A DNA stretch of 36,431 nt from an uncultured Opitutia bacterium (GTDB lineage: Bacteria; Verrucomicrobiota; Verrucomicrobiia; Opitutales; Opitutaceae), in contig CAIJFT010000068.1 of NCBI GenBank assembly GCA_903820035.1, positions 1-36,431 of the forward strand, given 5' to 3'. A program made the translations under genes and the position numbers. Of this stretch, positions 9,429-34,478 are shown piece after piece. Every line of letters starts with the position of its first letter. The stretch's first letter is position 1. A model generated the notes under the pieces. That model worked only from the letters and a program-made list of their open reading frames with translations. It had not been told where the DNA came from and did not search any database.

Positions 9429-9443
9429 GGACCCAATTCCGGT

Positions 9444-10624: not shown

Positions 10625-10737
10625 GAGGTGCGAGTTGAGCGCCGGAAACGGAACTTCTTCGCCGGGCGATTCCGCCCGGACCAACCGCTCCGCGCCCGAA
10701 ACCGCCGAGTCCTCCGATCTCTCAACCCTCACCTCTC
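10623..10737. repeat. Inverted repeat of GAGAGGTGAG-type simple sequence
   Basis: The arm GAGAGGTGCGAGTTGAG (10623-10639) is matched in inverted form at 10721-10737 (CTCAACCCTCACCTCTC), 15 of 17 bases agreeing, and the right arm continues with further ACCTCTCAACTC units to about 10748. Similar GAGAGCTGAGAG sequence occurs at 36211-36230. The repeat overlaps the start of the next gene. Confidence 0.65.
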
Positions 10738-11559: not shown

Positions 11560-11604
11560 TTGTCACACAGCCGCCACGTGTTTGTAACAATCGACGGCCA
11601 TGAT
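11560..11604 (+). promoter_or_regulatory. Predicted Pho box and -10 upstream of porin-pstS
   Basis: Three 7-bp units are spaced exactly 11 bp apart: TTGTCAC (11560), CCGCCAC (11571) and TTGTAAC (11582). This is the 7+4 arrangement of PhoB binding sites. Ten bases after the last unit lies CATGAT (11599-11604), four of six matches to a -10 hexamer. That matches the known geometry in which the Pho box replaces the -35 element. The middle unit is the weakest. Expected transcription would start near 11611, giving a leader of about 29 nt. Confidence 0.68.
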
Positions 11605-11639
11605 GGGCGTGCCCGGTGGACTCCCCGCCGACCCATTCC

Positions 11640-12911
11640 ATGAAAGTGACCCAAATCAAAACCTTCACCGCCCTCTGCGGGGCGCTGCTTTTTACCGCCG
11701 GTGCCTTCGCTCAGGACAGCGGGGCCCTCATCGAAGCCCTGATTCGCAAGGGCGTCCTGACCAATCAGGAGGCCGAGGATATCCGCGCCGATCTGGTGCG
11801 GGAGAATAACACGATCCCGGCCCACGCGATGGCGGGCGGCAAGACGACCGACCGGCTGAGCGTCGGCATGCGCATGCAGATCCAGTACGCGAGTCTCGAT
11901 ACCAATGTCACGGGCGCCGCGTTCGGTCCGGTCGCAACCGACCACTTTTTCACCCGCCGGATGTACATCACGATGAAGGCCGGCGTGGGTGCCGATTGGG
12001 GTGCGACGATGACCTACGATCTCGCCGGTGGTAGCTACGACGACGCGATCCTCGAGTGGAAGCCGACGCCCGACCTCTCCTTTAACTTCGGTCTCCGCAA
12101 GGTGAACGTCGTTAACGAAGAGCGCGGCTCCAGCGGCAACCTCAAGTCCATCGAGCGTTCCGGCGTCACGCGTTTCTTCGTCGAAACCAACAACGGCCGC
12201 CGCCTTGGCGCCGGCAGCTATCGCATCGGCGCTTTCCTGGACGGCAAGAAGGAGATCAATAACTCCGTGGGTATTGTCTACAGTGCCGCCATCACCAATC
12301 CCGAGCGCGACGAGACCTTCGCCGGTGCCTCCGCAGTCGGCACCAACGCCACGAATCGCAAGGCGTTCTGGGGTAATGTCGGGCTCAACGGCAAGTTCGC
12401 CGAAAACGCCGGCACGTGGATCGCCGGTTTCGGCATGGGCGTGCTGCCCGACCAGGGCGGCGCCAGCAACACGAACCTCGGCCGCGGCTTCGACCTGAAC
12501 GTCTATTCCTACTACACGGATATCACCTACGGCCGCTTCAACCTCCTCGCGGAGTACCTGTCCGCCAATATCGAGAAAGGCTTTTCCGCCACGCGCGATT
12601 CGAAGCCTTCCGGTTACTACATTCAGCCCAGCTTCATGCTGACGGAATCCCTCGAAGCGGTGGCCCGGTATCAGCAGTTGGATAGCGACGGTCGCGGCGT
12701 CCAGCTGGGCGATGTCATTCGTTCCGCCCCCGCGGGTCCGACGATGAACAAGTTCAGTGAGTGGTACGTGGGCGGCAACTGGTACATTCGTGGTCAGGAC
12801 CTGAAGTTCCAGCTCGGCGCCATCTCCGGCAAAACCAAGGACACCGTCACGGGTGGCCCGGCGGATGCCAAGACGGTGGGCCTGCGCTCCCAGATGCAGC
12901 TTCAGTTTTAA
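11640..12911 (+). CDS. Outer-membrane porin, probable phosphate-starvation porin (OprO/P-like)
   Basis: This 423-residue secreted beta-barrel begins at ATG 11640 (MKVTQIKTF) with a signal peptide cut after AFA (about residue 24). A short helical segment follows (ALIEALIRKGVLTNQEAEDIRADLVRE), a common front element of porins in this group that may trimerise or contact the cell wall. The remainder is rich in alternating aromatic/polar strands and ends in QLQF with a C-terminal Phe for outer-membrane assembly. The barrel resembles the phosphate-selective porin O/P family. It directly precedes pstS (36-nt gap) behind a predicted Pho box, so it most likely supplies phosphate to the periplasm under starvation. 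Ion selectivity is inferred from context only. Confidence 0.82.
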   Translation: MKVTQIKTFTALCGALLFTAGAFAQDSGALIEALIRKGVLTNQEAEDIRADLVRENNTIPAHAMAGGKTTDRLSVGMRMQIQYASLDTNVTGAAFGPVATDHFFTRRMYITMKAGVGADWGATMTYDLAGGSYDDAILEWKPTPDLSFNFGLRKVNVVNEERGSSGNLKSIERSGVTRFFVETNNGRRLGAGSYRIGAFLDGKKEINNSVGIVYSAAITNPERDETFAGASAVGTNATNRKAFWGNVGLNGKFAENAGTWIAGFGMGVLPDQGGASNTNLGRGFDLNVYSYYTDITYGRFNLLAEYLSANIEKGFSATRDSKPSGYYIQPSFMLTESLEAVARYQQLDSDGRGVQLGDVIRSAPAGPTMNKFSEWYVGGNWYIRGQDLKFQLGAISGKTKDTVTGGPADAKTVGLRSQMQLQF

Positions 12912-12947
12912 CCGCCAGGTCACATCATCAATTTGCACTTCACCGCC

Positions 12948-13754
12948 ATGAACAAAGCACTGTTCCTCTTTGCCGCGCTTTCCCTCGCGACTGTCGCTTC
13001 TGCCCAGAAGCTTGTCATCAAGGGCTCCGATACGTTGGGCGCCAAGTTGGTGCCGACGCTCGCCGAGGAGTACAAGGCGACTCACCCGGGGGTTTCCTTT
13101 GAAATCGCCGCCGAAGGTTCGACCACCGGCATTGCCGCCATCATCGACGGCACCGCGCAAATCGGCATGAGCTCCCGCCGCGCGAAGCCGACAGAAATCT
13201 CCGCCGCGACCGCCAAGGGCGTGACCCTCAAGCCCATCATTGTCGCCTACGACGGCATGGCTGTCATCGTGAACGCCAATAGCCCGCTCGCGAAGCTGAC
13301 CCTGCGCCAGGTTGAGCAAATCTTCACCGGCGATGTTACCGACTGGTCGGCCGTCGGCGGCAAGCCGGGCAAGATTTCGGTCTACACCCGCAACACCTCC
13401 TCGGGCACCTATTCCGACTGGAAGGATCTCGCGATGAAGAAGCGCGATTACGCCAAGTCGTCCCAGAAAATGGCCGGCAACGAACAGATTGCTTCTGAGG
13501 TGGCCAAGAATCCTAACGGCATCGGTTACGTGGGCCTCGCCTACATCCAGGCCGAAGGCATCAAAGTGGTGTCGATCGATGGCGTGACGCCCTCCAAAGA
13601 GACGGTTTTGAATAAGACGTACGCCTATGCCCGCCCGACGTTCTACTACACCAACGGCGAGCCTGCAGGAGAGGCGGCCAAGTTCGTCGAGTTTGCACTA
13701 AGTGACGCGGGCCAGAAAGTAACCGCGAAGATCGGCTTCGTGCCGGTGAAGTGA
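12948..13754 (+). CDS. pstS: Periplasmic phosphate-binding protein PstS
   Basis: This 268-residue substrate-binding protein of the high-affinity phosphate ABC transporter starts at ATG 12948, giving a signal peptide MNKALFLFAALSLATVASA that is cut before QKLVIKGSDT. Phosphate-contact segments typical of PstS are visible: GSDTLGAKLV near the N-terminus, AEGSTTGIAAIIDGTAQIGMSSR, and the RNTSSGTYSDW block that binds phosphate through backbone and side-chain groups. The length is usual for the short PstS type. It follows the porin by 36 nt and probably shares its Pho-controlled promoter. A 193-nt gap with hairpins separates it from pstC. Confidence 0.95.
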   Translation: MNKALFLFAALSLATVASAQKLVIKGSDTLGAKLVPTLAEEYKATHPGVSFEIAAEGSTTGIAAIIDGTAQIGMSSRRAKPTEISAATAKGVTLKPIIVAYDGMAVIVNANSPLAKLTLRQVEQIFTGDVTDWSAVGGKPGKISVYTRNTSSGTYSDWKDLAMKKRDYAKSSQKMAGNEQIASEVAKNPNGIGYVGLAYIQAEGIKVVSIDGVTPSKETVLNKTYAYARPTFYYTNGEPAGEAAKFVEFALSDAGQKVTAKIGFVPVK

Positions 13755-13759
13755 CTCAG

Positions 13760-13777
13760 TGTCACCGGATCGTGACA
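13760..13777. promoter_or_regulatory. Perfect palindrome after pstS
   Basis: TGTCAC and GTGACA form a perfect 6-bp inverted repeat around the spacer CGGATC, five bases after the pstS stop codon. The half-sites resemble Pho-box cores (TGTCAC), but they are inverted rather than direct, so the role is open: mRNA 3' stabiliser, weak terminator or operator. Another TGTCAC occurs at 13824-13829. Confidence 0.45.
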
Positions 13778-13885: not shown

Positions 13886-13947
13886 CGCCGGGTCGGTTTA
13901 CCCGCGGTAGCAACGCTAGATCAAGCCCGCGAACAGGAGTCTTGCGC

Positions 13948-15552
13948 ATGAGCCAGTCGATTCCGACGACGAAGCCGGATCATTTCGTCATCCAGAAGAA
14001 AAAGGTGCAATTCCTCGGCCTGACGGTCGACGATTGCATTAAGGTCTTCTTTGGCGGCAACGCGGTCGTCTCGATCGTCGTGCTCGCGCTGATCACCTAT
14101 TTTCTTTTCCGCGAAGGCGCCGGGTTCTTCGGGCAAAACCGCCAGAATCTGATGGTGTACCGTCAGGCGGGGCTCGAGTACGTCGATTTTATCCGCGAGG
14201 AAACCGATAATCACACCGCGCTGACGCGGTACTTGTCCGACCTGCGGCTGCGGTCGCTGAATCATCTGGTGCAGCAAAAGGGCCTCTCGCCGGAAGCAGC
14301 CGGCGCGTCGCTCGCCAAGTTCGACGAGTTTGCGGGACAGTTCGGTGAGGCCGTCGATCCTGTGCGGGTCATTTTGTCGGACCTCACCGAGACCGCTACG
14401 GCCATCAAGACGAAGTTCATCGTCAATGAGGATAAGAAGGAGGAGCGCCGACAATTGCTGGCGGAGGGTAAGACCGTGGAAGCGGCGGCGGTCCGGATCG
14501 TGCCGGTCGACTTCAACGCGGAACTGCAACCCCTGCGCGGGACGCTGCCGGTCTTCAAGGCGGCCAACCACGCATTTGCCAACACGCTCACCGCGCTGCT
14601 GAACCAGGTGCCGGTGCTGCCGGCCCCCGAGCTGGAGCAACGGGCCCAGCGATTCCAGGCCCTGACGCGCGACTTTCTCGCCACACTTCCGTTGGTGGAA
14701 CGAAATCTCGAGACGTGGGATCACCACCGCCCAGTCCCGGTTTCGCAGACGATCACGGCCTTTGTTTTTGGTCGTCAGTGGCTGACCGCCAGTTTTTGGC
14801 AGGATTGGTATGGCATTGTTCCCCTGCTCGTCGGCTCGCTCATGGTCTCGATCGTCGCTTTGGCCCTGGCGGTGCCGCTCGGGGTGGGCGCGGCGGTCTA
14901 CGTCAACCAGATCGCCTCGCTACGGGAGCAGAAGATCATCAAGCCCTGCATCGAATTCATCTCGGCGATTCCGTCCGTCGTGCTCGGCTTCTTTGGTATC
15001 GCCGTCCTGGGTGAAGCCCTCCGGCTGCTGTCGCAGCAGTCGTGGCTCTCCTGGGTGCCCGGTTTTCCGTTCAGCGAGCGGCTGAACATCCTGACGGCCG
15101 GGTGCCTGCTCGCCCTGATCGCAGTGCCGACGATTTTCACGCTGGCCGAAGACGCCCTGAATAATGTCCCGCGTTCGTTCCGGGAAGCCTCGTTCGCGCT
15201 GGGTGCTTCGCGTTTGCAGACGATCATCAAGATCATCGTCCCGGCCTCGCTCTCGGGCATTATCTCCGCCGTACTGCTCGGCCTCGGCCGCGTGATCGGC
15301 GAGACGATGGTGGTCCTGTTGTGCGCCGGCAATCGCATCGCGATTCCGGACTTTACCAACGGCCTCGCAGTCGTCGTCGAGCCGGTGCACACGATGACCG
15401 GCATCATCGCGCAGGAAATGGGCGAGGTCGTGCGGGGCAGCATCCATTACCGGGCGCTGTTTGTGGTCGGCTTGGTGCTCTTCCTCGTTTCGCTGGGGAT
15501 CAACTTCATGGCCCAGAAAATCGTGCGGCGGTACCGCATCTCCATCGGATGA
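13948..15552 (+). CDS. pstC: Phosphate ABC transporter permease PstC with large extracytoplasmic insert
   Basis: One of two inner-membrane permease subunits, 534 residues long, clearly longer than the usual PstC of about 300. ATG 13948 is supported by the well placed ribosome-binding site AGGAG at 13935-13939. The order is: first membrane helix around 38-56, a largely hydrophilic segment of about 230 residues (58-285) with helical, partly charged composition, then the standard membrane domain from about 288. That domain carries the permease coupling loop ([14 protein letters not shown] followed by a conserved hydrophobic run) that contacts PstB. The insert would face the periplasm and may interact with PstS or the porin. 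The stop overlaps the pstA start (ATGA). Confidence 0.93.
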
Positions 15553-16595
15553 ATCTGGAAAACAGCGCTCACCTGTTCCGGGCGAAACCGAATGCCGCTC
15601 GTCGGGCCGAGCGGGGCATATTCTGGCTCTTCCGCCTCGCCACGTACGTCGTTCTGCTCAGCGGGGCCGCGGTTTTCGCCAACATCATCTTCAAAGGTGC
15701 CGGTACCGTGTTCAAAACCGAGGCGCCATTCATCAACACCACGTTTCTCACCGCCGCCCCCGAGTCCCTCTATGTGTTTGAGTGGCAGGGTCAAAAGCGC
15801 GAGATGGGCGACCACGCGTTCCGGGCGTTCAAGCAGCAGCATCCGGAGGCCGCGAACGTCAAGGCGGAGAGCTTCGTCTATTCCGCGGGCGGCATCTTTC
15901 CCTGCATCGTCGGCACGGTGCTGCTGGTGTTGGGCTCGATGGCAATCGCGCTTTCGTTGGGCGTTTGTGCGGCCATCTATCTCAACGAGTACGCCCGCGA
16001 CGGTGCGTTCATCCGGTTTGTGCGGCTGGCGATTCTCAATCTGGCCGGCGTGCCTTCGATCGTTTTCGGCCTCTTCGGCTTCGGCATGTTCGTGATTTTC
16101 TTCGGCTGGAACGTCTCGCTCCTGGCCGGCTGGTTCACGCTGGCATTCATGGTCCTGCCCGTGGTCATCACCGCGAGCGAGGAGTCGCTCAAGGCGGTGC
16201 CGAAGGGCTTCCGCGAGGGCTCGCTCGCCCTCGGCGCCACCAAGTGGCAGACCATCCGCAAGAACGTCCTCCCGTACGCGCTGCCGGGCATCCTGACCTC
16301 GTCGATCCTCGGCATTGCGCGCGTGGCCGGCGAGACCGCGCCGATCATGTTCACCGCCGCCTACGTCGTGCGTGACAAAATGCCGTGGGAGGTTGAGAAG
16401 TTCAGCGATTTCTTTCTCCAGGGTGTGATGGCGCTGCCGTACCACATCTACGTCGTCAGTTCAAAGATCCCGCAGAACGAGTACACCGAACGCGTCCAGT
16501 ATGGCACGGCTTTTGTGTTTCTCGTCATTGTCGCCGTCATCGCGATGGCTTCGATCCTCCTTCGCAATCGTCTCCGGAACCGCTACAAATGGTAA
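15549..16595 (+). CDS. pstA: Phosphate ABC transporter permease PstA
   Basis: This is the second membrane subunit of the Pst transporter, 348 residues. ATG 15549 overlaps the pstC stop by the ATGA arrangement, indicating translational coupling. A cytoplasmic N-terminus precedes the first helix at about 24-48; a loop of roughly 65 residues (51-118) follows and carries [17 protein letters not shown]. The core membrane domain starts near [16 protein letters not shown] and has the PstB-contact loop [16 protein letters not shown]. The early loop is longer than in the Escherichia coli protein, paralleling the insert in PstC. The gene overlaps pstB by 7 nt. Confidence 0.93.
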
Positions 16596-17473
16596 CCGCC
16601 GTCCACGCTGTCATGGAACCACTTTCTCCTTCATCTGCCGCGGAAAAGCCGACCCCGCGGTTGGCGGCTGCCCAACCGGCCGCGGCCGCTCCGGCGAAAC
16701 CCGGGGCACCCGCCGCCACGCACCTGATCGACATCGACAACCTCGACTTCTTCTACGGGGCGTCGCAGGCGCTCCACGGGATCAACCTCAAGATCGAACA
16801 TCAGAAGGTGACCGCCTTCATCGGGCCCTCCGGCTGCGGCAAGTCGACCCTGCTCCGGTGCTTCAACCGCATGAATGATTTGATCGAGGGCACGCGGGTC
16901 GCCCGCGGGACGATCAAGATCCACGGCGTCGACATCTACCAACCCGACGTCGACGTGATCGAACTGCGCAAGCGCGTGGGCATGGTGTTCCAGAAATCCA
17001 ATCCCTTCCCGAAGTCGATCTACGAAAATATCACCTACGGTTTGCGGCTGCAGGGGCGCAACAAGAAGTCCGAACTGGATGAAATCGTGGAGCGTTCGTT
17101 GCGCGGTGCCGCGTTGTGGGACGAAGTAAAGGACCGCCTCGACCAGAGCGGGCTCGGCCTCTCCGGCGGCCAACAGCAGCGCCTCTGCATTGCCCGGGCC
17201 ATCGCCGTCGAGCCGGAGGTGATCCTCATGGACGAACCGTGCTCCGCCCTCGATCCGGTTGCGACCGCCAAGGTTGAGGAGCTGATCCAGGAGCTGCGCA
17301 CGCGTTACTCCATCGTGATCGTGACCCACAACATGCAGCAGGCCGCCCGCGTCTCGGACCGCACGGCTTTTTTCTACCTCGGCAAGCTCATTGAGTACGC
17401 CGATACCCGCGATATCTTCACCAATCCGGCCAATCCCCAAACCGAAGCGTATGTTTCGGGCCGGTTCGGTTGA
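16589..17473 (+). CDS. pstB: Phosphate ABC transporter ATPase PstB
   Basis: This cytoplasmic ATPase energises PstCA. All ABC motifs are intact in its 294 residues: Walker [10 protein letters not shown] starting at 79, Q-loop [11 protein letters not shown] at about 133-143, signature LSGGQQQ at 191-197, Walker B VILMDEP at 211-217 and H-loop His247. The first 45 residues form an Ala/Pro-rich extension not usual for PstB. A second in-frame ATG at 16613 would shorten this by only 8 residues, so most of the extension is retained either way. The gene overlaps pstA by 7 nt. PstB proteins also take part in PhoU/PhoR signalling. Confidence 0.96.
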
Positions 17474-17601
17474 GGGGTTGAGAGACCAAACGACAACGAG
17501 GCCAAGGGACCGGGCGAACGAAGTACCAGGTGACAAGAGACTCAGGCCCGCCGCCCGCCGACCACCGATTAATTATTCCCGATTACCGCCGCTTTCGCAC
17601 C

Positions 17602-18267
17602 ATGACCCACTACAACGAGGAACTCACCAAGCTGAAGGAGAGCCTGATCTCCATGGCCAGCCATGCGGAATCCGCCGTCACCCGGGCCATGCGGGCATTG
17701 GTGGAACGCGACGAGGCGCTCGCGCGGCAGGTGCAGGATGATGACAATATTCTCGACCAATTTGAGATCGAGGTCGACGACACGGCCGTCCACCTCCTCG
17801 CCAAGGCCCCGCTCGCGACCGAACTGCGGCTCATCACGGTCGCGATGAAGATCTCCCAGAATCTGGAGCGGGTGGGCGATGAAGCGGTGACGATGTCCCG
17901 CCGGGCCGTTGACCTCAACGCCGAGCCGCAGCTCAAGCCGTACATTGATCTCCCGCGCATGACCAAGATGTCGCTGGAGATGCTGCGCGACGCGATCAGC
18001 GCCTTCGTCAATCGCCAGCCGGAGTTGGCCCGCAGTGTGATCCCCCGGGACCAGGACGTCGACGACCTGAACCGGCAGCTGCACCGCGAACTTTCCAGTT
18101 ACATGGTCGAGCGGCCGACGACGATCACGCGCTGCCTGCACCTCATGGACATTTCGAAGGCCATCGAGCGCATCGCCGACCACGCCACCAACATCGCCGA
18201 GGAGGTCGTGTACCTTTACGAGGCGAAGGATATCCGCCACGCCGACCAACGCCGCCATGAAGCCTAA
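17602..18267 (+). CDS. phoU: Phosphate signalling regulator PhoU
   Basis: This 221-residue all-helical cytoplasmic protein is built of two PhoU three-helix repeats. Metal-binding E/D-x-x-x-D type motifs appear in both halves: ISQNLERVGDEAVTMSRR in the first and ISKAIERIADHATNIAEE in the second. It links the Pst transporter state to the PhoR kinase. ATG 17602 (MTHYNEEL) is chosen as the normal family start; the frame is open to 17530 without homologous-looking sequence. A 128-nt gap follows pstB. The gene overlaps phoB by 11 nt, so uptake signalling and the response regulator are translationally coupled. Confidence 0.95.
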   Translation: MTHYNEELTKLKESLISMASHAESAVTRAMRALVERDEALARQVQDDDNILDQFEIEVDDTAVHLLAKAPLATELRLITVAMKISQNLERVGDEAVTMSRRAVDLNAEPQLKPYIDLPRMTKMSLEMLRDAISAFVNRQPELARSVIPRDQDVDDLNRQLHRELSSYMVERPTTITRCLHLMDISKAIERIADHATNIAEEVVYLYEAKDIRHADQRRHEA

Positions 18268-18943
18268 GATCCTTGTCGTCGACGACGAGCCGGACGCGTT
18301 GGAAATCCTCGGTTTCAAACTGAAGGAGGCCGGCTACGCGCCGATCTTCGCCAAGGACGGTGCCCGCGCGATCAGCATGGCGCGCGATGAGCGTCCCGCC
18401 CTGATCGTGCTTGATCTCATGTTGCCCGAAGTGGACGGGTTGGAGGTCTGTAAGATTCTCCGCCGCGATCCCGCGACGGCGGCGATTCCCATCCTGATGC
18501 TGACGGCGCGGGCGGCCGAAATGGATCGCGTGATCGGCCTCGAACTGGGCGCCGATGACTACGTCACGAAACCCTTCAGCCCGCGTGAGCTCGTCCTGCG
18601 CATCAAGAAACTGCTGGCCCGCGTCAAGATGGCGGAGGAGCCGATTTCGGTGCTGCAATTCGGGACTTTGGCCATCGATGTGCCGCGCCACCGGGTGACC
18701 GTCGCCGGCACCGCGATTGAGCTCACCGCCACGGAATTCAAGCTCTTGGAAATCCTCGCCCGGCGGCGCGGCCGCGTGCAGACGCGCGAGCGGTTATTGC
18801 AGGACGTCTGGGGCTACGACAACCCGATCGACAGCCGGACGGTGGACACCCACATGCGCCGGTTGCGGGAGAAAATCGGCGCGGCCGCCGATTATCTGGA
18901 GACGATCCGCGGCGTGGGTTACCGCTTCAAGGCGGGCGAGTGA
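18257..18943 (+). CDS. phoB: Phosphate regulon response regulator PhoB/PhoP (OmpR family)
   Basis: This DNA-binding response regulator has 228 residues. The receiver domain (1-120) shows Asp9/Asp10, phospho-acceptor Asp53 (VLDLMLP), Thr83 and Lys105 (VTKPFSP). The C-terminal winged helix (about 130-226) has the OmpR-type ELTATEFKLLEIL, a recognition-helix region SRTVDTHMRRLREKIG, and the end ETIRGVGYRF. In the Pho system it would bind 11-bp-spaced repeats such as those predicted at 11560 and 20441. The start lies 11 nt inside phoU. Confidence 0.93.
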   Translation: MKPKILVVDDEPDALEILGFKLKEAGYAPIFAKDGARAISMARDERPALIVLDLMLPEVDGLEVCKILRRDPATAAIPILMLTARAAEMDRVIGLELGADDYVTKPFSPRELVLRIKKLLARVKMAEEPISVLQFGTLAIDVPRHRVTVAGTAIELTATEFKLLEILARRRGRVQTRERLLQDVWGYDNPIDSRTVDTHMRRLREKIGAAADYLETIRGVGYRFKAGE

Positions 18944-19070: not shown

Positions 19071-20252
19071 ATGACCCTTCTCGTCATCCTCCTTCTGCTC
19101 CTCGCGGTGGGCCTCGGTATCGGGGTCTGGTGGTACCGCGACCAGTTGCGGCAGGAGCAGCAGCGGCAGGCGCGGGATTTCGCCTCGCTCAGCGAACGGC
19201 GGCGGGAGGAATTGCATGCGCAGGCGGAGCGGACCTCGGCTCTTTTCGACCGGATGGTCGAAGGCCTCATCGTCCTCGGGGCCGATGGCCGTATCCGGCT
19301 GGCCAACCGGGCCGCGGGCGCTCTCTTTGATTTTGTTCCGCCCGCCGAGGGGCGCACGGTGCTCGAGGCCACCCGGCACCACGAGGTCGCGGCCCTGGTC
19401 GCGCGGCTTGAGCATGAACCGGAGGTGCTAAACCACGAACTCCGGCTCGAGAGTGTGGCGGAAACCCGCTACCTGCAGGTCAACGCCCTCGCCCTGCGCA
19501 CCGCGGCCGGAACGCGCGACGGGGCGATCTTGGTTTTTCACGACCTCACCCGCCTCCGTCAGCTTGAAGCGGTGCGCCAGGAATTTGTCGCCAACGTGAG
19601 CCACGAGCTGCGCACGCCGCTCTCGCTGATCAAGAGCGCCGCGGAGACGCTCGTTGACGGGGGCCGGCACGATCCCGCGATCACGGTGCGGTTCTTGGCG
19701 ATCATCGAGAAACAGGCGAACCGCCTCACGCTCCTCATCGACGATCTCCTGCTCCTGGCGCGGCTCGATTCCGGTCGGATCGAACTCAACCTGACCGACC
19801 TGCCGCTGCAACAGGCCGCGCAGGAGGCGTTGGATGACTCCGCGGTCGTCGCCGGCGCGCGTGGCGTGCGCCTCGAAAACCGCGTGGCCGCCGACGTGAG
19901 CGCCCACGCTGATCCCGAGCGCCTGCGGCAGGTCCTCATCAATCTCATCGACAACGCGATCAAGTACGGGCGCGAGGGTGGCACGGTTGTCGTGGGCGGG
20001 CGCGTCCTCGAACGGGGGCGGGTGGAGTTGACGGTGCGCGACGATGGCCCCGGGATCCCGGCCGAATCGCGCGAACGAATTTTTGAGCGGTTCTATCGGG
20101 CCGACAAGGCGCGGACGCGTGAACAGGGCGGCACCGGGCTCGGCCTCGCGATCGTGAAGAACGTGGTGCACGCCCACGGCGGGGAAGTCCGCGTCGAGAG
20201 CGCGCCGGGCGAGGGTACGGAATTCTTTATCACACTGCCCGCGGCGGGTTGA
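19071..20252 (+). CDS. phoR: Phosphate regulon sensor histidine kinase PhoR
   Basis: This membrane-bound histidine kinase has 393 residues. One N-terminal hydrophobic helix (2-21) is followed by a charged coiled segment (22-57), a PAS domain (about 58-160, FDRMVEGLIVLGADGRIRLAN), a HisKA dimerisation helix with His178 (FVANVSHELRTPLS), and the ATPase domain with N-box NLIDNAIKYG, G1 DDGPGIP and G2 GGTGLGLAIV. It lacks an extracytoplasmic sensor loop, as expected if it senses phosphate indirectly through PhoU and Pst. ATG 19071 is favoured over an upstream TTG at 19032 because it begins at the membrane helix. A 127-nt gap separates it from phoB. Confidence 0.92.
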   Translation: MTLLVILLLLLAVGLGIGVWWYRDQLRQEQQRQARDFASLSERRREELHAQAERTSALFDRMVEGLIVLGADGRIRLANRAAGALFDFVPPAEGRTVLEATRHHEVAALVARLEHEPEVLNHELRLESVAETRYLQVNALALRTAAGTRDGAILVFHDLTRLRQLEAVRQEFVANVSHELRTPLSLIKSAAETLVDGGRHDPAITVRFLAIIEKQANRLTLLIDDLLLLARLDSGRIELNLTDLPLQQAAQEALDDSAVVAGARGVRLENRVAADVSAHADPERLRQVLINLIDNAIKYGREGGTVVVGGRVLERGRVELTVRDDGPGIPAESRERIFERFYRADKARTREQGGTGLGLAIVKNVVHAHGGEVRVESAPGEGTEFFITLPAAG

Positions 20253-20429
20253 GGAAGCCTGGCGCCTGGTGTAACCGTCCAAGCGAACGTTCGATCGACC
20301 ACGTCGGCGCTGCGCGGCGACGCGGCGACGAGGAAACGCGTCGTCGTCAGGCCACGGGTCTAAGGCCGGAACGTTGGCGGGGCGAATGCGCCGGGGCGTT
20401 GACCGGGCGGCCCGGTCTGCGACGACGGA

Positions 20430-20485
20430 TTGTTGCCCAAGCGTAACCGGGCCGACGCGGTATTGCGACACGGGCGGGTTCTAAT
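20430..20485 (+). promoter_or_regulatory. Predicted Pho box and -10 upstream of glycolipid operon
   Basis: Four 7-bp units occur with an 11-bp period: TTGTTGC (20430), GCGTAAC (20441), CCGACGC (20452) and TTGCGAC (20463). Exactly 10 bp after the last unit is TCTAAT (20480-20485), five of six matches to the -10 consensus. The same spacing is seen before the porin gene. The units are individually weaker than those at 11560, so this is a moderate prediction. The rest of the 262-nt gap 20253-20514 holds no gene that I can see. Confidence 0.5.
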
Positions 20486-20514
20486 GAGCGAAAGGAATCC
20501 ACCTCATCGCCCCC

Positions 20515-21699
20515 GTGAAACTCGCCCTCGTCACCGAAACGTTCCCGCCGGAGGTCAACGGCGTGGCGATGACGTTCGGGGTCATCGCGCGTGAACTCGG
20601 CCGCCGGGGGCATGCCGTCACGGTGTATCGGCCGCGGCGGGACGACCTGCCGGCGGGTGAGATCCGGCCGGAGTTTTCCGAGGTCCCGCTGCCGGGCTTC
20701 CCCATTCCCGGTTATCCCCAGATCCGGCTCGGGCTGCCCGCGGGGCGCCGCCTAAGGGCGCGGTGGCGCGACGAGCGTCCGGATTTGGTCCATGTTGTCA
20801 CCGAAGGACCGCTCGGCGCTTCGGCCATCACCGCGGCGCGGGATCTGGGCATTCCGGTGACCTCGAGCTTTCACACCAACTTCCACACCTACACGCGGGA
20901 CTACGGCTTCGCCCCGCTCGGCCGGCTGGTGCTTGCGTGGTTGCGCCGGGTCCACAACCGGACGGCCTGCACGTTTGCGCCGACTCCGGAACTGGCCGCG
21001 GAGTTGCGCGACGGCGGATTCCGGTCGGTCGGCCAGCTCTCCCGCGGCGTGGACACCTGGCAGTTTCACCCGATCCGGCGGCAACCCGAACTGCGGCAAC
21101 GTTGGGGCGCGGCGCCCGACACACCCGTGGTGCTCCACGTCGGCCGCATGGCCGCGGAAAAAAACTACGGCCTGCTGTTCCGGGCCTACGCGGCCATGCG
21201 GGTGGCGAATCCGCGTCTCAAGTTTGTGCTCGCCGGGGAAGGACCGCTGCGCGCCCGGCTGCAGCGCGAACACCCCGAGTGCATTTTCGCGGGCTTCTTT
21301 TCGCGGGAGGAAATCGGTCGCTACTACGCCTCCGCCGACATTTACCTGCACGCGAGCGTCACCGAAACGTTCGGCAACGTGCTGACCGAAGCGATGGCGA
21401 GCGGGCTGGCCGTGGCCGGTTTTGATTACGCGGCCGCGCGCCGGTTTGTGCGACACGGCCACAACGGCCTGGCGGTACCGCTGGGCGACGAGGCCGCGCT
21501 GATCGACGCCGCGGTGCTGCTCGCGACCGACGACCTCCTGCGGGCCCAGTTGCAGGCGTCCGCCCGCGCCGCGGTGGAGGGGCAGTCGTGGTCCGCGGTC
21601 ATCGCCCGCTTCGAATCCGATCTGGCGGCCTATGCCCGTGGCCAGAGTCCGGATACACCCAACGACCCCGTGACCCTTTCGCTGCCGCTGCGCTCATGA
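20515..21699 (+). CDS. GT4-family glycosyltransferase (diacylglycerol glycosyltransferase candidate)
   Basis: This 394-residue GT-B glycosyltransferase would transfer a sugar from a nucleotide donor, probably to a lipid at the inner membrane. The N-terminal acceptor domain begins MKLALVTETFPPEVNGV. The linker has SRGVDTWQFHP, typical of alpha-mannosyl/glucosyl transferases. The donor domain shows LHVGRMAAEKN, LAGEGP and the E-x7-E motif with Glu284 and Glu292 (ETFGNVLTE). GTG 20515 is the only plausible start, as an in-frame stop lies at 20485. The stop overlaps the next start (ATGA). Known GT4 enzymes such as Agrobacterium Agt make glucosyl- and glucuronosyl-diacylglycerol under phosphate limitation; a role of that kind is inferred from context. 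Mannosyl transfer to phosphatidylinositol-like lipids is an alternative. Confidence 0.85.
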   Translation: MKLALVTETFPPEVNGVAMTFGVIARELGRRGHAVTVYRPRRDDLPAGEIRPEFSEVPLPGFPIPGYPQIRLGLPAGRRLRARWRDERPDLVHVVTEGPLGASAITAARDLGIPVTSSFHTNFHTYTRDYGFAPLGRLVLAWLRRVHNRTACTFAPTPELAAELRDGGFRSVGQLSRGVDTWQFHPIRRQPELRQRWGAAPDTPVVLHVGRMAAEKNYGLLFRAYAAMRVANPRLKFVLAGEGPLRARLQREHPECIFAGFFSREEIGRYYASADIYLHASVTETFGNVLTEAMASGLAVAGFDYAAARRFVRHGHNGLAVPLGDEAALIDAAVLLATDDLLRAQLQASARAAVEGQSWSAVIARFESDLAAYARGQSPDTPNDPVTLSLPLRS

Positions 21700-22862
21700 A
21701 CCTCCGCCTGCTTATTCTCACCGCCGGATACGGCGAAGGTCACAACGCGGCCGCCCGGGCCTTGGCCACGGCGTGGGAGGCACGCAACGGCCGGGGGCAG
21801 GCGGTCGTCGTCGATGTTTTCGCCTTGGCCGCGCCGCGGCTGAACGAACTCACGCGGCGGGCCTATCTCGGTTTGATCAACCATGCGCCCAACCTCTGGC
21901 GGGCCGCGTATGGTTGGCTCGACCGGTCCGCGGCCGTGCCCCAACTGCTGCGCGGGCTGCAGGCCGAACGCAAAGTCCTCTCTGCGGTCATTGCCCGGGA
22001 GGACCCCGTCGCCATCTGCTGCACCTACCCGGTGTACGCCTTCCTCCTGCGGGTGTTGGCGGAGGAGGAGGGGATGGCGGTTCCTTTTTTCAACGTCGTC
22101 ACCGACTCGATCAGCATCAATTCGCTCTGGTGGCGGGCCGGGGCGGCGGGGTGGTTTCTCCCGAACGAGGATTCGCGGCCCGCGCTGCTGCAGGCGGGCG
22201 TCGACCCGGAGCTGATCGCCGTATCCGGTTTTCCCGTGCCGCCGTTTTTCGCGGACAACGAGGGTCGACTGACGCCGCCGGACCTGGCCGCCGGCGCCGT
22301 GCCGCGGGTGCTCTACATCATCAACTCCGGCACGCGGGGTTCGGCGGAGACGGCCCGGCGCCTCCTGCAGGAAACGAACTGGGAAGTCACCTGCACCGTG
22401 GGCCGGAACGCCGGGCTGCAGACCGAACTCAGCCGGCTGGCGGCGGGCCGCCGGGCGCCCGCGACTATCCTCGGTTGGACCTCCGAGATTCCGCGTTTGT
22501 TGATGACGCATCATGTGGTCGTCAGCAAAGCCGGCGGCGCCACGACGCAGGAGGCGCTCGCGGCCGGCTGTCCAATGATTGTGAATCAGATCGTGCCCGG
22601 CCAGGAGGAGGGCAACTACGAGCTGCTCCGTCGGCACGGGGTCGGTGCCTTGGCCGAGACCCCCGACGCGGTTCTGGCCGCACTGCAGCGGGCCTTTGCC
22701 GACGAGGGTCGGGAGTGGCGGCGGTGGCGGCTTGCGTTGCGCCGGATCGCCCATCCGACGGCGGGCCCGGAGGTGGTGTCCGCCATCCTCGGAGCGATGG
22801 CCCGGCCGGCGGGTGAAACCGATGCCCCCTTCGCTTGGCCGCCGGCGGCTGCGACCGCATGA
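21696..22862 (+). CDS. MGDG-synthase-like GT28 glycosyltransferase (processive diacylglycerol glycosyltransferase family)
   Basis: This GT-B enzyme of 388 residues resembles MGDG synthases and bacterial UgtP. The N-terminal MGDG-synthase domain has the diagnostic glycine loop TAGYGEGHNAAARAL (residues 9-23). The C-terminal GT28 domain has LYIINSGTRGSAE, then SEIPRLLMTHHVVVSKAGGATTQEALAAGCPMIV, with the conserved GGATTxE donor-binding stretch and the PGQEEGN motif. It would add galactose or glucose to diacylglycerol. ATG 21696 overlaps the previous stop, and its own stop overlaps the next start, so four genes are coupled. Sugar specificity and processivity cannot be predicted here. Confidence 0.87.
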   Translation: MNLRLLILTAGYGEGHNAAARALATAWEARNGRGQAVVVDVFALAAPRLNELTRRAYLGLINHAPNLWRAAYGWLDRSAAVPQLLRGLQAERKVLSAVIAREDPVAICCTYPVYAFLLRVLAEEEGMAVPFFNVVTDSISINSLWWRAGAAGWFLPNEDSRPALLQAGVDPELIAVSGFPVPPFFADNEGRLTPPDLAAGAVPRVLYIINSGTRGSAETARRLLQETNWEVTCTVGRNAGLQTELSRLAAGRRAPATILGWTSEIPRLLMTHHVVVSKAGGATTQEALAAGCPMIVNQIVPGQEEGNYELLRRHGVGALAETPDAVLAALQRAFADEGREWRRWRLALRRIAHPTAGPEVVSAILGAMARPAGETDAPFAWPPAAATA

Positions 22863-23803
22863 AATCCTGTTTCATCTTCAACCCCCACTCGGGGGCCAAC
22901 CGCCGCCGGCCGGAGTTTGCGGGCTACATCCGTGATTTCATCCGGACGCGCGGAGTGGATGCGGACTTTGCGATCACCGACGGACCTGGACATGCGACGC
23001 AGATGGCCGCCCTGGCGGCGCGGGCCGGCTGCGCGGTCGTCGTGGCCGTCGGCGGCGATGGCACGGTCAATGAAGTCGCGCAGGGCCTCATCGGCACGCC
23101 GACGGCGCTGGCGCTGGTGCCGTGCGGCTCCGGCAACGGACTGGCGCTGCACCTCGGCCTGCCGCGCTCGCCCTTGGACGCCTTGCGGCTCGCCACCGGC
23201 GTGGGGGCCAGCGTCGCCACGATCGATACCGGCACGGCCAACGGCCGGCCCTTCGTCAACGCCATGGGTCTCGGCCTCGACGCGGTGGTGGGCGAGCGTT
23301 TCAACCGCCTGACCCGCCGCGGACTGCCGGGCTATACGCGGGCCGCGTGGGCGGCGTTCCGCAGCTTTCAGCCGACCCGGGTACGGATAACCGGCGGTGG
23401 TGGAGACGAAACGCTGGACGTGCTGCTCGTGGCCGTGGCCAACTCGGATCAGTACGGCAATCACGCCCGCATCGCCCCCGGGGCGCGCGTGGACGACGGC
23501 CAACTCGATCTCGTCGCCATCCGCGCGGTGGGCATCGCCGCCGCGGCCCTGTTGGTCCCGCGGCTCTTCCTCGGCAATCTGGACCGGAGCCGGCATGTGG
23601 TGCGCCTGACCGGCCCGCAGTTTGTCATCGAGCGGCCGGCGCCGGCGGTCCTGCACACCGATGGTGAAACGCACTTTGCCGCCGGCCGGGTCCAGGTGGC
23701 GGTCAAGCCGCGCAGCCTGCGCCTGCTCGTGCCGGCGGCGTCGCGGGTCGGCGCGGTCAAGCCCTTGCCGGACTCCGCCCGGTTTGCCCTTCAACTGCCA
23801 TGA
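22859..23803 (+). CDS. Diacylglycerol kinase family lipid kinase
   Basis: The 314-residue protein has the DAGK catalytic fold: FIFNPHSGANRR at the N-terminus, the nucleotide-binding GGDGTVNEVAQGL (GGDGT at 65-69) and PCGSGNGLALHLGL (about 88-101). A C-terminal beta domain ends with HTDGE. This family phosphorylates diacylglycerol, sphingosine or related lipids (YegS/DgkB type). It is coupled by ATGA overlaps to genes on both sides. In a phosphate-starvation module it might return excess diacylglycerol to phosphatidate, or act on a different lipid; this is unresolved. Confidence 0.87.
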   Translation: MKSCFIFNPHSGANRRRPEFAGYIRDFIRTRGVDADFAITDGPGHATQMAALAARAGCAVVVAVGGDGTVNEVAQGLIGTPTALALVPCGSGNGLALHLGLPRSPLDALRLATGVGASVATIDTGTANGRPFVNAMGLGLDAVVGERFNRLTRRGLPGYTRAAWAAFRSFQPTRVRITGGGGDETLDVLLVAVANSDQYGNHARIAPGARVDDGQLDLVAIRAVGIAAAALLVPRLFLGNLDRSRHVVRLTGPQFVIERPAPAVLHTDGETHFAAGRVQVAVKPRSLRLLVPAASRVGAVKPLPDSARFALQLP

Positions 23804-24609
23804 AACTGCACGTTCGCACGGTCATCCTCTCCGACGTCCACCTCGGCACTTCCGATTCGAAGGCGGAGGAGGTGAACCATTTTCTCCGCTCCGTGCGTTG
23901 CGAGAAGCTGATCCTCAACGGCGACATCATCGACGGGTGGCAGTTGCGGCGCGGCGGCCAGTGGACGAAGGCGCATACGCGTTTCATCCGGATCGTCCTG
24001 AAGAAACTCGAGAAGCGCGACACCGAGGTGATCTACCTCCGCGGCAACCACGACGACATCCTCGCCAGTTTCCTCCCGCTGCAATTCGAGAATCTGCACA
24101 TTGTCGAGGACCACGTGCACGAAGGGCCGCGCGGTCGCTATCTCGTGCTGCATGGCGACATCTTCGATACGGTGACGAAGAACTTTGTGTTCCTCGCGCA
24201 CCTCGGCGACTGGGGCTACCGGGCGCTGCTGACCCTGAACCGCCTCTACAACCGCTGGCGGGTCTGGCGGGGCAAGGAGTACTGGTCGTTGAGCCGCGCC
24301 ATCAAGGCCCGCGTCAAGGAGGCGGTCAGCCATGTCTCCAACTTCGAGGGGCACATCGCCGATCTCGCACGGGCCCGCGGCTGCACCGGCGTGATGTGCG
24401 GCCACATCCACACCTCGGCCGACAAGATGATCGGTGATATCCATTATCTGAATTCAGGCGACTGGGTCGAATCGCTGACGGCGATCGTCGAGCACTGGGA
24501 CGGCCGCTTTGAGTTGATCGACTTCAACGGCTTCCTGCGGGACTACCCGATGGACGTGCCGGCCTCGCCGGTCGAATTGCCGGAGGAGAGCGAGAGCGTG
24601 GTGGTTTGA
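23800..24609 (+). CDS. PlcP/LpxH-type metallophosphoesterase (candidate phospholipase C)
   Basis: This 269-residue calcineurin-like phosphoesterase has metal ligands in order: Asp12/His14 (SDVHLGT), Asp42 (NGDIIDGW), Asn83/His84 (RGNHDD), His118 (VLHGDIFD) and His202/His204 (CGHIHT). The blocks LGDWGYRALL, YWSLSRAIKARVKEAV and LNSGDWVESLTAI match what I recall of the PlcP group. PlcP of Sinorhizobium meliloti was first annotated as UDP-2,3-diacylglucosamine hydrolase and later shown to cleave phospholipids to diacylglycerol during phosphate limitation. Automatic annotation will probably say LpxH-like. Position after two glycosyltransferases and beside phoBR favours the PlcP role. There is no signal peptide, so it would act from the cytoplasmic face. 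Confidence 0.82.
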   Translation: MKLHVRTVILSDVHLGTSDSKAEEVNHFLRSVRCEKLILNGDIIDGWQLRRGGQWTKAHTRFIRIVLKKLEKRDTEVIYLRGNHDDILASFLPLQFENLHIVEDHVHEGPRGRYLVLHGDIFDTVTKNFVFLAHLGDWGYRALLTLNRLYNRWRVWRGKEYWSLSRAIKARVKEAVSHVSNFEGHIADLARARGCTGVMCGHIHTSADKMIGDIHYLNSGDWVESLTAIVEHWDGRFELIDFNGFLRDYPMDVPASPVELPEESESVVV

Positions 24610-24674
24610 GTGCGTTGACCGGCGTTGCGTGCGGCTAACCGGGCATTGCCATCCGTGCGCCGCACCACCGAGAC

Positions 24675-25334
24675 ATGAAGGGCCGCGTCATCGCCATCGG
24701 CGACATCCACGGCTGCGCCGATGAATTCGAAGCACTCCTGGGCAAGGTGGCTCCGGCGCGCCACGACCGCATCGTGCTGCTCGGCGATCTCGTCAATCGG
24801 GGACCGGAAAGTGCCCGGGTCATCGCGCTGGCCCGGCAGCACGCGCAATCATCCCTGCTCGGCAACCACGAGTTGCGGCTCCTCAACTACCGGCGCACCG
24901 GGGATCCCACCCACCTCAAGCGATCCGACTACGACACGTTGAAGCAACTCGGGCCGAAAGAGTGGGCGTACCTGGAGGCCATGCCGCTGACCGCGCGCGT
25001 CGAGGGACTGGCGACGGTGCTGGTCCACGGGGGATTTTTGCCGCGCCGGCCGTGGCGGGGGCAACCGGCCCGGGTGGTGACCCGCATCCAGGTTGTCGGC
25101 CCCGACGGTGAGCCCCACAAGCGCTCCGAATATCCCGCCGCGCCGCACTGGTCGGAACTTTGGCAGGGCCCGCCCTTCGTCGTGTACGGCCATACGCCGG
25201 GCCCCGAGCCGGTGCGGTCGCCTTGGGCGCTGGGCATCGACACCGCGTGCGTGCAGGGCGGGGCATTGACCGCGTGCATTCTACCGGGCCGCGAACTGGT
25301 GCAGGTGCCGGCGCGGCAGCGCTACGCGGGTTGA
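24675..25334 (+). CDS. PPP-type metallophosphatase (calcineurin-like), paralog 2
   Basis: This 219-residue soluble phosphatase is the close paralog of the gene at 10635. The two align without gaps over about 217 residues at roughly 70% identity by eye. Signature blocks are GDIHGCADEFEALL, GDLVNRGPES, LGNHELRLLNY, VHGG, YGHTP and GIDT. The start MKGRVIAIGDIHG is clean and directly at the domain. It follows the PlcP-like gene by 65 nt on the same strand and may be the last gene of that transcript, which ends at the terminator at 25489. The substrate is unknown; phosphoprotein or diadenosine tetraphosphate are the family options. Confidence 0.86.
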   Translation: MKGRVIAIGDIHGCADEFEALLGKVAPARHDRIVLLGDLVNRGPESARVIALARQHAQSSLLGNHELRLLNYRRTGDPTHLKRSDYDTLKQLGPKEWAYLEAMPLTARVEGLATVLVHGGFLPRRPWRGQPARVVTRIQVVGPDGEPHKRSEYPAAPHWSELWQGPPFVVYGHTPGPEPVRSPWALGIDTACVQGGALTACILPGRELVQVPARQRYAG

Positions 25335-27194: not shown

Positions 27195-28370
27195 TTGAAC
27201 CCCTTCGCCCGTATTTCTGCCGCCGTGGTCGGCACCGGTTTTATCGGACCGGTGCACGTCGAGGGGCTGCGCCGCCTCGGGGTCACCGTGCGGGGTGTGC
27301 TGGGTTCGTCGCCGGAGAAATCGCAAGCGGCGGCGGCCACGCTGGGCCTGGCGCACGGCTATCCCGATTTCTCCGCGGTGCTCGCCGATCCCGCCGTGGC
27401 CGCCGTCCATCTCGCCACGCCGAACCGGCTGCACCGGGAGCAGGTCCTGGCGGCGCTGGCCGCGGGCAAGCACGTCATTTGCGAAAAGCCGCTCGCCCTT
27501 GATCCGGCCGAAACCGCCGAGCTCGCGGCGGCCGCGGCGGCGCATCCGCGGCAGGTCTGCGCGGTGTGTTACAACGTCCGTTTCTATCCGCTGGCCCTGC
27601 ATGCCCGCGCGCTCGTCCGGCGCGGGGAGCTGGGCGACATTTTTCACGTCCACGGCAGCTACCAACAGGACTGGCTGCTTTACCCGACGGATTTCAACTG
27701 GCGGGTGGACGCCCAGGCCGGCGGAGAACTGCGCGCCGTCGGAGACGTGGGAACCCATTGGCTCGATTTGGTGACCTTCATCACCGGCCTCGAAACGGAA
27801 AGCGTGGTGGCCGATCTGCGCACGGTGCACCCGGTGCGGCGCAGCCCGTCGGTAGGCTCAAGCGAGACCTTTGCCGGAGCCGGCGCCGAAGCGCGCGGCG
27901 AGGGTCGCCCGGTGCCCGTGGCAACGGATGACGTCGGCTCGGTGCTGCTGCGGTTCCGCGGTGGCGTCCGCGGCGCGTGTACGTTTTCGCAGGTTTCCGC
28001 CGGCAGAAAGAACTGCATCCGGTTGGAGATTTCCGGCTCCCGCCGGTCGCTCGCGTGGAACAGCGAGAACCCCGACGAACTCTGGATCGGCGAACGCGAC
28101 GAACCCAGCCGCCTGCTCCGGCGCGATCCCGCGCTCATGGATGCTTCGGCGGCCCGGTATTCCAATTACCCCGGCGGCCATGCCGAGGGTTACCCGGACA
28201 CCTTCAAGCAAATGTTCCGCGCCATCTACACGGACATCGCCGCCGGCCGGCCGTCACCGGATTCCCCCTACGCCACCTTCGCCGACGGTCACCGGGAGGT
28301 TCTGCTGGGAGCCGCGATCGCCGAAAGTCACCGTCGCGGCGCCTGGATGCCGGTGACTGCATCCGCCTGA
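27195..28370 (+). CDS. Gfo/Idh/MocA family NAD(P)-dependent oxidoreductase
   Basis: This 391-residue sugar or inositol dehydrogenase-like enzyme binds NAD(P) through GTGFIG (13-18) and has the family EKP motif at 97-99 ([11 protein letters not shown]). The second domain shows [17 protein letters not shown], which supplies the Asp and His pair near the substrate. The start is the TTG at 27195 ([15 protein letters not shown]); no in-frame ATG is available nearby. It is the first gene of a sugar operon divergent from the AraC gene. The next gene follows at once (TGATG overlap or a 20-nt gap depending on its start). The substrate is not predictable. Confidence 0.9.
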
Positions 28371-28390
28371 TGGTTTCGCGCCCCGTCCCC

Positions 28391-29311
28391 ATGCAACTCG
28401 GTTTCGTTTCCGCCCTCTTTCCCGACCTCCCGCTGGATGCGGTGCTGGCGCTGGCCCGCGCGCAGGGACTATCCACCGTCGAGCTGATGTGTTGGCCCGT
28501 CGGCAAGGCGGAGCGCAAGTATGCCGGCGTGACGCATGTCGACGTCACGGGCTTCACGGCGGCGCAGGCCGACGACATCCGGGCCCGCTGCACGCATCAC
28601 GGCGTGACGATCAGCGCCCTGGGTTATTATCCGAATCCATTGGACCCCGACCGCGCGGCGGCGAAGCGGGCGACGGATCACCTCAAGCGCGTCATCCGGG
28701 CGGCCGCCCGGCTCGGGCTGAAGAACGTCAACACCTTTGCCGGCCGCGACTGGACGAAGACGGTCGACGAGAACTGGCCGCGCTTCCTCAAGACCTGGCG
28801 GCCGCTCGTCGCGTTTGCCGCCGACCACGGGATTCTGCTCGGTATCGAGAATTGCCCGATGCTGTTCACCCGCGACGAGTGGCCGGGCGGCAAGAATCTG
28901 CTGACGACGCCGGCGCTGTGGCGGCGTGCCTTCAGCGATATCTCCGCGGCGAATTTCGGCCTGAACTACGACCCGTCGCACTTCGTCCTGCAGGACATGG
29001 ATGCGATCGCGCCGCTGCGGGAGTTTCGCGACCGGCTGTTTCATGTGCACGCGAAGGACGTCGCGATCCTGACCGACCGCCTGGATCAGGTCGGCCGGTT
29101 TGCGTATCCGCTGGAGTGGCACGAGCCCCGCATTCCCGGCCGCGGCGCCCTCGACTGGCCGCGGTTTGTCGCCGCGCTCCGGCGGGTGGGTTACGCGGGG
29201 GCGGTTTGCATCGAAGTCGAGGACCCGACCTTCGGTCCGACGCTGGCCGGCCGACGCCGGGCGCTGCAGTCGGCCGCCCGTTTCCTCCGCCCGCATTTTT
29301 CCCGCCGATGA
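28391..29311 (+). CDS. Sugar phosphate isomerase/epimerase (TIM barrel, AP endonuclease 2 family)
   Basis: This 306-residue xylose-isomerase-like TIM barrel has metal ligands recognisable as Glu in GIENCPM, Asp and His in NYDPSHF, His in FHVHAKDV and Glu in CIEVEDP. The ATG at 28391 gives MQLGFVSALFP, the usual start of this subgroup; an ATG at 28370 overlapping the upstream stop would add MVSRPVP and cannot be excluded. The stop overlaps the deoC start (ATGA). Together with the upstream oxidoreductase it forms a common pair that oxidises and isomerises unusual sugars or inositols. Confidence 0.88.
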   Translation: MQLGFVSALFPDLPLDAVLALARAQGLSTVELMCWPVGKAERKYAGVTHVDVTGFTAAQADDIRARCTHHGVTISALGYYPNPLDPDRAAAKRATDHLKRVIRAAARLGLKNVNTFAGRDWTKTVDENWPRFLKTWRPLVAFAADHGILLGIENCPMLFTRDEWPGGKNLLTTPALWRRAFSDISAANFGLNYDPSHFVLQDMDAIAPLREFRDRLFHVHAKDVAILTDRLDQVGRFAYPLEWHEPRIPGRGALDWPRFVAALRRVGYAGAVCIEVEDPTFGPTLAGRRRALQSAARFLRPHFSRR

Positions 29312-30102: not shown

Positions 30103-30176
30103 GCTCCGCGAACGCGAAGCCTCCGCGCCCAGACTCCTCCCTTTTTTCACTGCAAACCCGCACCCGACTTAATCCC

Positions 30177-32978: not shown

Positions 32979-33050
32979 TCATTCGCTCCGGTGAGGTGCG
33001 CCGTCCAGCGTCTGAAGCAGACGGCCACCTTCATCAACTCCGGCTCCGCC

Positions 33051-34475: not shown

Positions 34476-34478
34476 CCA

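Follow-up and report, generated by a model that had tools for sequence, protein, structure and literature searches.

A probable PlcP-type membrane lipid remodelling cassette with an Agt2-type glycosyltransferase beside the pst and pho genes of an uncultured Opitutia bacterium

The stretch of DNA analysed here (the window, 36,431 nt) is contig C68 (CAIJFT010000068.1; G+C 65%) of an uncultured Opitutia genome of 6.05 Mb in 469 contigs (GCA_903820035.1), whose nearest named relatives, as judged by the phosphoesterase described below, are genomes from metagenomes that bear the label Opitutae or Opitutaceae. It carries a cassette of four genes, all on the + strand between positions 20515 and 24609. 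The GT4 glycosyltransferase gene (20515..21699) has a GTG start and encodes Glyco_transf_4 and Glycos_transf_1 domains, and the GT28 glycosyltransferase gene (21696..22862) encodes a protein resembling monogalactosyldiacylglycerol (MGDG) synthase and UgtP (MGDG_synth, PF06925, 60.3 bits, cut-off 25). These are followed by a gene for a lipid kinase of the diacylglycerol kinase family (DAGK; 22859..23803; DAGK_cat, PF00781, 95.9 bits; YegS_C, PF19279, 90 bits) and a gene for a PlcP/LpxH2-type metallophosphoesterase with a Metallophos domain (23800..24609). An earlier reading of this DNA, made from the sequence only, had described four genes joined by ATGA overlaps; coordinates, Pfam domains and all three junctions agree with it. 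The sequence-only reading also placed these genes directly downstream of pst-phoU-phoB-phoR. The order is correct (porin, pstS, pstC, pstA, pstB, phoU, phoB, phoR, cassette), but 262 bp separate phoR from the GT4 gene, and the span originally proposed, 19071-25334, contains the cassette and also covers phoR and a second phosphoesterase gene (24675-25334) that is outside the conserved unit.

The phosphoesterase was found by tblastn to be 49% identical to a Pseudomonas aeruginosa protein and 42% identical to a Sinorhizobium meliloti protein. The gene for the P. aeruginosa relative (270 residues) overlaps the GT4 gene located 3' of it, while the S. meliloti relative (281 residues) is encoded next to an acyl-homoserine-lactone synthase and a LuxR regulator, a setting that fits SMc00171, which adjoins sinI/sinR. 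An overlap of plcP with the following GT4 gene has been published for plcP-agt1 of P. aeruginosa (PMC8528852; papers given by PMC number here and below are cited from the parts of their text that were available), and the two protein lengths agree with those reported for LpxH2 in these species (PMC3087551). In a tree of 57 rows, the window protein grouped with the P. aeruginosa and Sinorhizobium PlcP/LpxH2 proteins and was split, with support of 100/99, from the LpxH side, represented by four LpxH rows (E. coli, Klebsiella, Aeromonas and Teredinibacter) and two bacteroidal LpxH-like rows; long branches were seen for LpxH_Tered, Thioclava and L101. Five metal-binding blocks are complete in the window protein (SDVHLG, NGDIIDGW, RGNHDD, LHGDIFD and CGHIHT). 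GNH(D/E) has been given as the rule for PlcP/LpxH2 and a GNR substitution as the mark of LpxH (PMC3087551), and block 3 reads GNHDD in the window protein versus GNRDF in all four LpxH rows, although the LpxH side does not carry this mark throughout, both bacteroidal rows reading GNHDI. The genome also encodes LpxI (PF06230, 143 bits, over the cut-off) and, therefore, lipid A synthesis need not rest on the 23800..24609 gene; a second PlcP match in the genome was not found at E values up to 0.001. The 25 solved folds closest to an AlphaFold model of the protein (mean pLDDT 85.6) are all LpxH, with identities of 16-21%; this shows the superfamily rather than the substrate and does not tell PlcP and LpxH apart. 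A search of PDB sequences gave a haemoglobin chain as sole match (E 0.72). An identity as LpxH was rejected because the protein falls outside the LpxH clade and has GNHDD instead of GNR, and because LpxI is encoded elsewhere in the genome. The sequence-only reading, which had named grouping with true LpxH as the outcome that would count against it, was thus right to call this protein PlcP-type. Two Bacteroidota PlcP-like rows (L067:5995-7916 and L187) nest within the verrucomicrobial clade, which suggests gene transfer; the Parabacteroides one of the two adjoins a different glycosyltransferase (PF13528).

Among the matches listed of 250 plasmid records, the best match of the GT4 protein was a P. 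aeruginosa gene (50% identity, 82% coverage), and the two proteins are 46% identical over 373 aligned residues. This gene lies beside plcR and a gene for a phospholipase C, a neighbourhood from which, with the PAO1 map, we take it to be PA0842, encoding Agt2. P. aeruginosa Agt2 has been reported to be a synthase of glucuronosyl-diacylglycerol (GADG) (PMC8528852). Analysis of a 37-row GT4 tree showed that 24 cassette GT4s from the family, order and class levels form, together with Agt2 and an Acinetobacter protein, a 26-row clade (100/99). Five Proteobacterial GT4s, for which adjacency to PlcP was checked, and a Rhizobium GT4 form a second clade (100/100), and three deeper verrucomicrobial GT4s encoded beside PlcP (L117, L123 and L125) form a third. 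This tree was built without the Agrobacterium and SAR11 Agt proteins, includes five rows of unusual composition and leaves Agt2 and the Acinetobacter protein either inside or outside the verrucomicrobial rows. In the SAR11 enzyme, Asp256 replaces the signature Glu at the catalytic dyad position (PMC8231724). Glu occupies the corresponding column throughout the 26-row Agt2 clade, including the window protein (ETFGNV motif), and in two actinobacterial rows outside it; Asp was found in every row of the Agt clade (six) and in the three deeper verrucomicrobial rows. A canonical Agt identity was, therefore, rejected for the cassette GT4, which lies outside the 100/100 clade of PlcP neighbours and carries Glu instead of Asp. 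Judging from its placement, the protein belongs to an Agt2-type clade and may transfer glucuronosyl residues to diacylglycerol (DAG); a nucleotide-sugar dehydrogenase encoded in the genome is a possible source of UDP-glucuronic acid. The comparison with Agt made in the sequence-only reading needs correction in this respect: the clade of the window protein is that of Agt2 and not that of the Agt proteins paired with PlcP in Proteobacteria.

GT28 matches PRK13609, the model of diglucosyl-DAG synthase, over nearly its full length and also matches the sequences of solved DAG glycosyltransferases, including a processive DAG beta-glucosyltransferase and the chloroplast MGDG synthase. The motifs GEGHN and SKAGGATTQE...PGQEEGN are kept in the GT28 alignment (44 rows), and GGDGTvNE, PCGSGNGL and DDG are kept in the kinase alignment (39 rows), the window sequence being counted twice in each; the substrates proposed for both enzymes are predictions from such family matches. 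A paralogue of the lipid kinase gene (G000:C350:13882-14793, 44% identity) contains one in-frame TAA and may represent a pseudogene or an assembly error. The genome also has a more distant kinase paralogue and one further, weak MGDG_synth match.

Matches to PlcP were found in 167 of 200 genomes of the family (133 of 156 of good quality) and in 101 of 288 genomes of the phylum (95 of 253 of good quality), some of the phylum-level matches being weak and possibly representing other phosphoesterases. The survey of gene order in other Verrucomicrobiota that the sequence-only reading had proposed was carried out on 101 loci, i.e., the window and 100 fetched loci, which represent 100 genomes as G033 was taken twice. 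The choice of loci was not random; approximately one was taken per genus of the family, then members of the window's genus and high scorers, then 40 from outside the family. Among the 60 family genomes, the order GT4-GT28-DAGK-PlcP was found in 31, representing 11 genera, and partial units were GT4-GT28-PlcP (8), GT4-DAGK-PlcP (4), GT4-PlcP-GT28 (3), GT4-PlcP (2), DAGK-PlcP (2) and PlcP-GT28 (1). In-frame start/stop overlaps of the xTGA type were present in 33 of 42 GT4/GT28 pairs, 27 of 31 GT28/kinase pairs and 26 of 38 kinase/PlcP pairs. The persistence of the four-gene order in 31 of 60 family genomes, along with these recurring overlaps, indicates that the order is more than chance. At the order level (15 genomes), GT4-PlcP was found in 8, PlcP-GT28 in 1 and PlcP alone in 6, at the class level (17 genomes) a fused GT4-PlcP in 9, adjacent GT4-PlcP in 3 and PlcP alone in 5, and at the phylum level (8 genomes) GT4-PlcP with a GT4 of a different clade in 3, PlcP-GT28 in 2 and PlcP alone in 3, where the "PlcP alone" class takes in loci cut by contig ends. 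The nine genomes in which GT4 and PlcP form a single protein (L102, L103 and L107-L113) come from a different family of the same class, in which they represent five genera; each fusion is an unbroken frame (649-762 codons) in which a short linker joins the two parts, and L112, the one fusion searched against Pfam, contains GT4 and Metallophos domains. Ten frames adjoining PlcP genes that lack a GT4 neighbour encode three mechanosensitive channels, one GT28 and three other enzymes, with three frames having no family match.

The genes preceding the cassette, also on the + strand, encode a phosphate-selective porin O/P-like protein (11616..12911; PF07396, 66 bits), a PstS-like phosphate-binding protein (12933..13754; PF12849, 135 bits), PstC, PstA and PstB (13942..17473; two BPD_transp_1 permeases and an ABC_tran ATPase, named from their order) and PhoU (17530..18267; TIGR02135, 198.6 bits, cut-off 130), the true start of the latter being probably further downstream since the TIGR02135 match begins at residue 27. 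A phoB-like response regulator gene (18257..18943; best match TIGR02154, 249 bits, below the cut-off of 296) is followed by a phoR-like sensor kinase gene (19071..20252) that encodes HisKA, HATPase_c and PAS domains and for which the NCBIfam models PnpS (345 bits, cut-off 400) and PhoR (275 bits, cut-off 334) were among the top three, both below their curated cut-offs. A motif search of 19 pst upstream regions, including that of the window, identified CGtCACGnAATtGTAACA, with half-sites 11 bp apart (log-likelihood 126 versus 52 for shuffled regions), although some training sites of the resulting Pho-box model are poor (L028, 2.5 bits). In the window, sites were found on the + strand before the porin/pst operon (11572..11589, 22.3 bits), 5' of pstC (13760..13777, 13.2 bits) and 67-84 bp 5' of the GT4 gene (20431..20448, 8.4 bits). 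With the GT4 site this much weaker than the first pst site, transcription that continues from the phoBR operon may play a part in the window.

When this model was scored on the 250 bp 5' of GT4 in 68 loci, 55 upstream regions reached p <=0.05 and 40 reached p <=0.01 against mononucleotide shuffles. The median score was 11.8 bits versus 1.5 bits for 1546 windows before other mechanically called open reading frames of the same loci, and at least 10 bits were reached by 66% of the GT4 upstream regions versus 3.6% of these controls; as the loci are related, the rank-test P of 7e-35 is stronger than the data warrant. A gene for PstB or PstC was part of the fetched stretch at 21 of the 101 loci, representing 15 of 64 genera, in layouts that vary (window-like, divergent and downstream), and a stretch of 19 kb is an estimated 0.4% or so of such a genome. 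In three loci, the gap between divergent pst genes and cassette was covered; each encodes an SNF2 helicase there and one of them also a chloride channel, and five of the ten frames compared had no family match. A phoR gene directly 5' of GT4 was found in three of 11 loci of the same genus (the window, L128 and L130; 764-780 bits); among the other eight, L132 has only 988 bp and L133 5.4 kb of sequence 5' of the cassette, and no PhoR match above 115 bits was found in the remainder of the 101-locus set. The direct linkage to the Pho sensor genes emphasized in the sequence-only reading is, therefore, real in the window but local.

Taking into consideration the family-level identities of the four genes, their kept order, the GT4-PlcP adjacency and fusion, the enrichment of Pho boxes and the recurrent pst linkage, the cassette very probably represents a PlcP-type membrane lipid remodelling unit under PhoB control in a verrucomicrobial variant. 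Control by phosphate is proposed because of the Pho boxes, the pst linkage and the pairing of GT4 with PlcP, and the same observations lend support to the earlier suggestion of a distinct Verrucomicrobial version of lipid remodelling. Under phosphate shortage, PhoR and PhoB would turn on the cassette in the window organism together with pst, and PlcP would strip the phospho-head group from phospholipids, yielding DAG. The Agt2-clade GT4 would then add a sugar to DAG, most likely glucuronic acid, which would provide an acidic lipid in place of phosphatidylglycerol, or glucose; GT28 could form a second glycolipid, probably beta-linked and neutral, with either DAG or the first glycolipid as acceptor. 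The lipid kinase could return surplus DAG to phosphatidic acid and, thus, plausibly act as a brake on free DAG. A GT4-PlcP bifunctional polypeptide would allow DAG to go directly from release to glycosylation. There is about an even chance that Verrucomicrobiota use a DAG module of their own, in which an Agt2-type GT4 is tied to PlcP, by adjacency in many relatives at the order and class levels and by fusion in one family; in the Opitutaceae-type family, this module would be extended by another glycosyltransferase and by a kinase metering free DAG back to phosphatidic acid.

Several observations weigh against this interpretation. The kinase would restore phosphate to DAG, contrary to a simple phosphate-saving pathway, and its match to the NCBIfam subfamily TIGR00147 (109.9 bits) is below the cut-off of 118.65, as the GT28 match to PRK13609 (149 bits) is below the equivalog cut-off of 500. 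Genomes without a PlcP match numbered 33 of 200 in the family and 187 of 288 in the phylum. PlcP was found without any of its three partners nearby in nine of the 60 family genomes, and a gene for an MscS-type channel lies 3' of a lone PlcP gene in three genera of the family (L035, L040 and L058). Thirteen of the 68 GT4 upstream regions miss p 0.05, the window's own GT4 site is weak in that 7.4% of controls reach 8 bits, and the E. coli Pho-box consensus showed no excess in the 68 GT4 upstream regions (5.25 mismatches versus 5.24 after shuffling).

Three other explanations were considered for these genes. The phosphoesterase could be a lipid A enzyme with LpxH function, with the glycosyltransferases acting on lipopolysaccharide or another envelope glycan and the proximity to pho genes being accidental. 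Its annotated plasmid relatives do bear the name UDP-2,3-diacylglucosamine diphosphatase, all 25 closest solved folds are LpxH, the two bacteroidal LpxH-like rows share GNH in block 3, and Opiyo et al. raised, as a speculation, the interchangeability of LpxH and LpxH2 (PMC3087551). However, the tree placement, GNHDD as opposed to GNRDF in the four LpxH rows, the presence of LpxI and the recurrence of Pho boxes all contradict such a role, as does the report that loss of E. coli lpxH is not compensated by P. aeruginosa lpxH2 (PMC3087551), and this explanation is considered very improbable. Similarly improbable is a constitutive glycolipid operon that lies near pst by chance and does not respond to starvation; while the weak site at the window's GT4 and the lone PlcP in nine of 60 family genomes would fit it, the contrast between the 68 GT4 upstream regions and the 1546 controls at 10 bits and the pst linkage, which takes various layouts and spans 15 of 64 genera, would not.

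A somewhat better, though still unlikely, candidate is a phosphate-controlled cassette that modifies another lipid, such as ceramide or polyprenol, with a kinase of the ceramide or sphingoid type. The PCGSGNGL motif of the cassette kinase is reminiscent of sphingoid kinases, and sequence does not tell the acceptors of GT4 enzymes. Nevertheless, the GT28 matches are DAG glycosyltransferases, and the relatives of PlcP and Agt2 use glycerophospholipids and DAG (PMC8528852). Remodelling of glycerophospholipids through DAG remains the preferred interpretation.

Among the neighbouring genes, the second phosphoesterase gene (24675-25334), which is PrpE/ApaH-like and begins 65 bp after PlcP, was rejected as a member of the cassette, since its matches in L128 and L130 are on the other strand, 0.9-1.5 kb from PlcP. 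A further metallophosphoesterase gene located 5' of the porin gene (10635-11420) matches a model of the 24675-25334 protein with 397 bits. The flanks of the window (88-10624 and 27195-36188) contain carbohydrate genes, which encode GH43, TonB receptors, a mandelate-racemase-like enzyme, a sulfatase and an apiosidase.

In the literature found, experiments on PlcP lipid remodelling have so far been carried out in Proteobacteria; with the cassette, such remodelling can be tied to a defined set of genes in many Verrucomicrobiota. The Pho-box model derived from pst promoters is searchable, the fusion offers one protein in which DAG release and glycosylation could be studied jointly, and the kinase poses the testable question of how cells limit free DAG while their lipids are exchanged. 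PlcP itself has already been reported in marine Verrucomicrobia by Sebastian et al. (PMC4796936), the available text of which names no verrucomicrobial GT4/GT28/kinase cassette or fusion, and has been reported as absent from verrucomicrobial methanotrophs (PMC9239053). Among the matches listed in searches of the open-access literature, none described a PlcP cassette or glucuronosyl-DAG in Verrucomicrobiota or a fusion involving PlcP, and neither the four-gene unit nor its Agt2-type partner of PlcP was found there.

By comparison with known systems, the window GT28 resembles MGDG synthase and UgtP in its MGDG_synth domain and its near full-length match to diglucosyl-DAG synthase, but it scores under the equivalog cut-off and sits within a Pho cassette. 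The window GT4 shares its clade and 46-50% identity with the GADG synthase Agt2 (PA0842) of P. aeruginosa, for which a Pho box has been reported (PMC8528852); unlike the window gene, however, the Agt2 gene adjoins plcR and not plcP in the one P. aeruginosa record inspected. The closest parallel in gene content is the plcP-agt operon of Proteobacteria (Methylosinus, SAR11 and plcP-agt1 of P. aeruginosa), where a PlcP-type phosphoesterase is also encoded beside a GT4 DAG glycosyltransferase and where Pho boxes have been reported in some cases (PMC8528852, PMC4796936). In contrast to that operon, the GT4 of the window belongs to another clade with Glu instead of Asp, precedes PlcP and is accompanied by a GT28 and a lipid kinase, and in another verrucomicrobial family GT4 is fused to PlcP.

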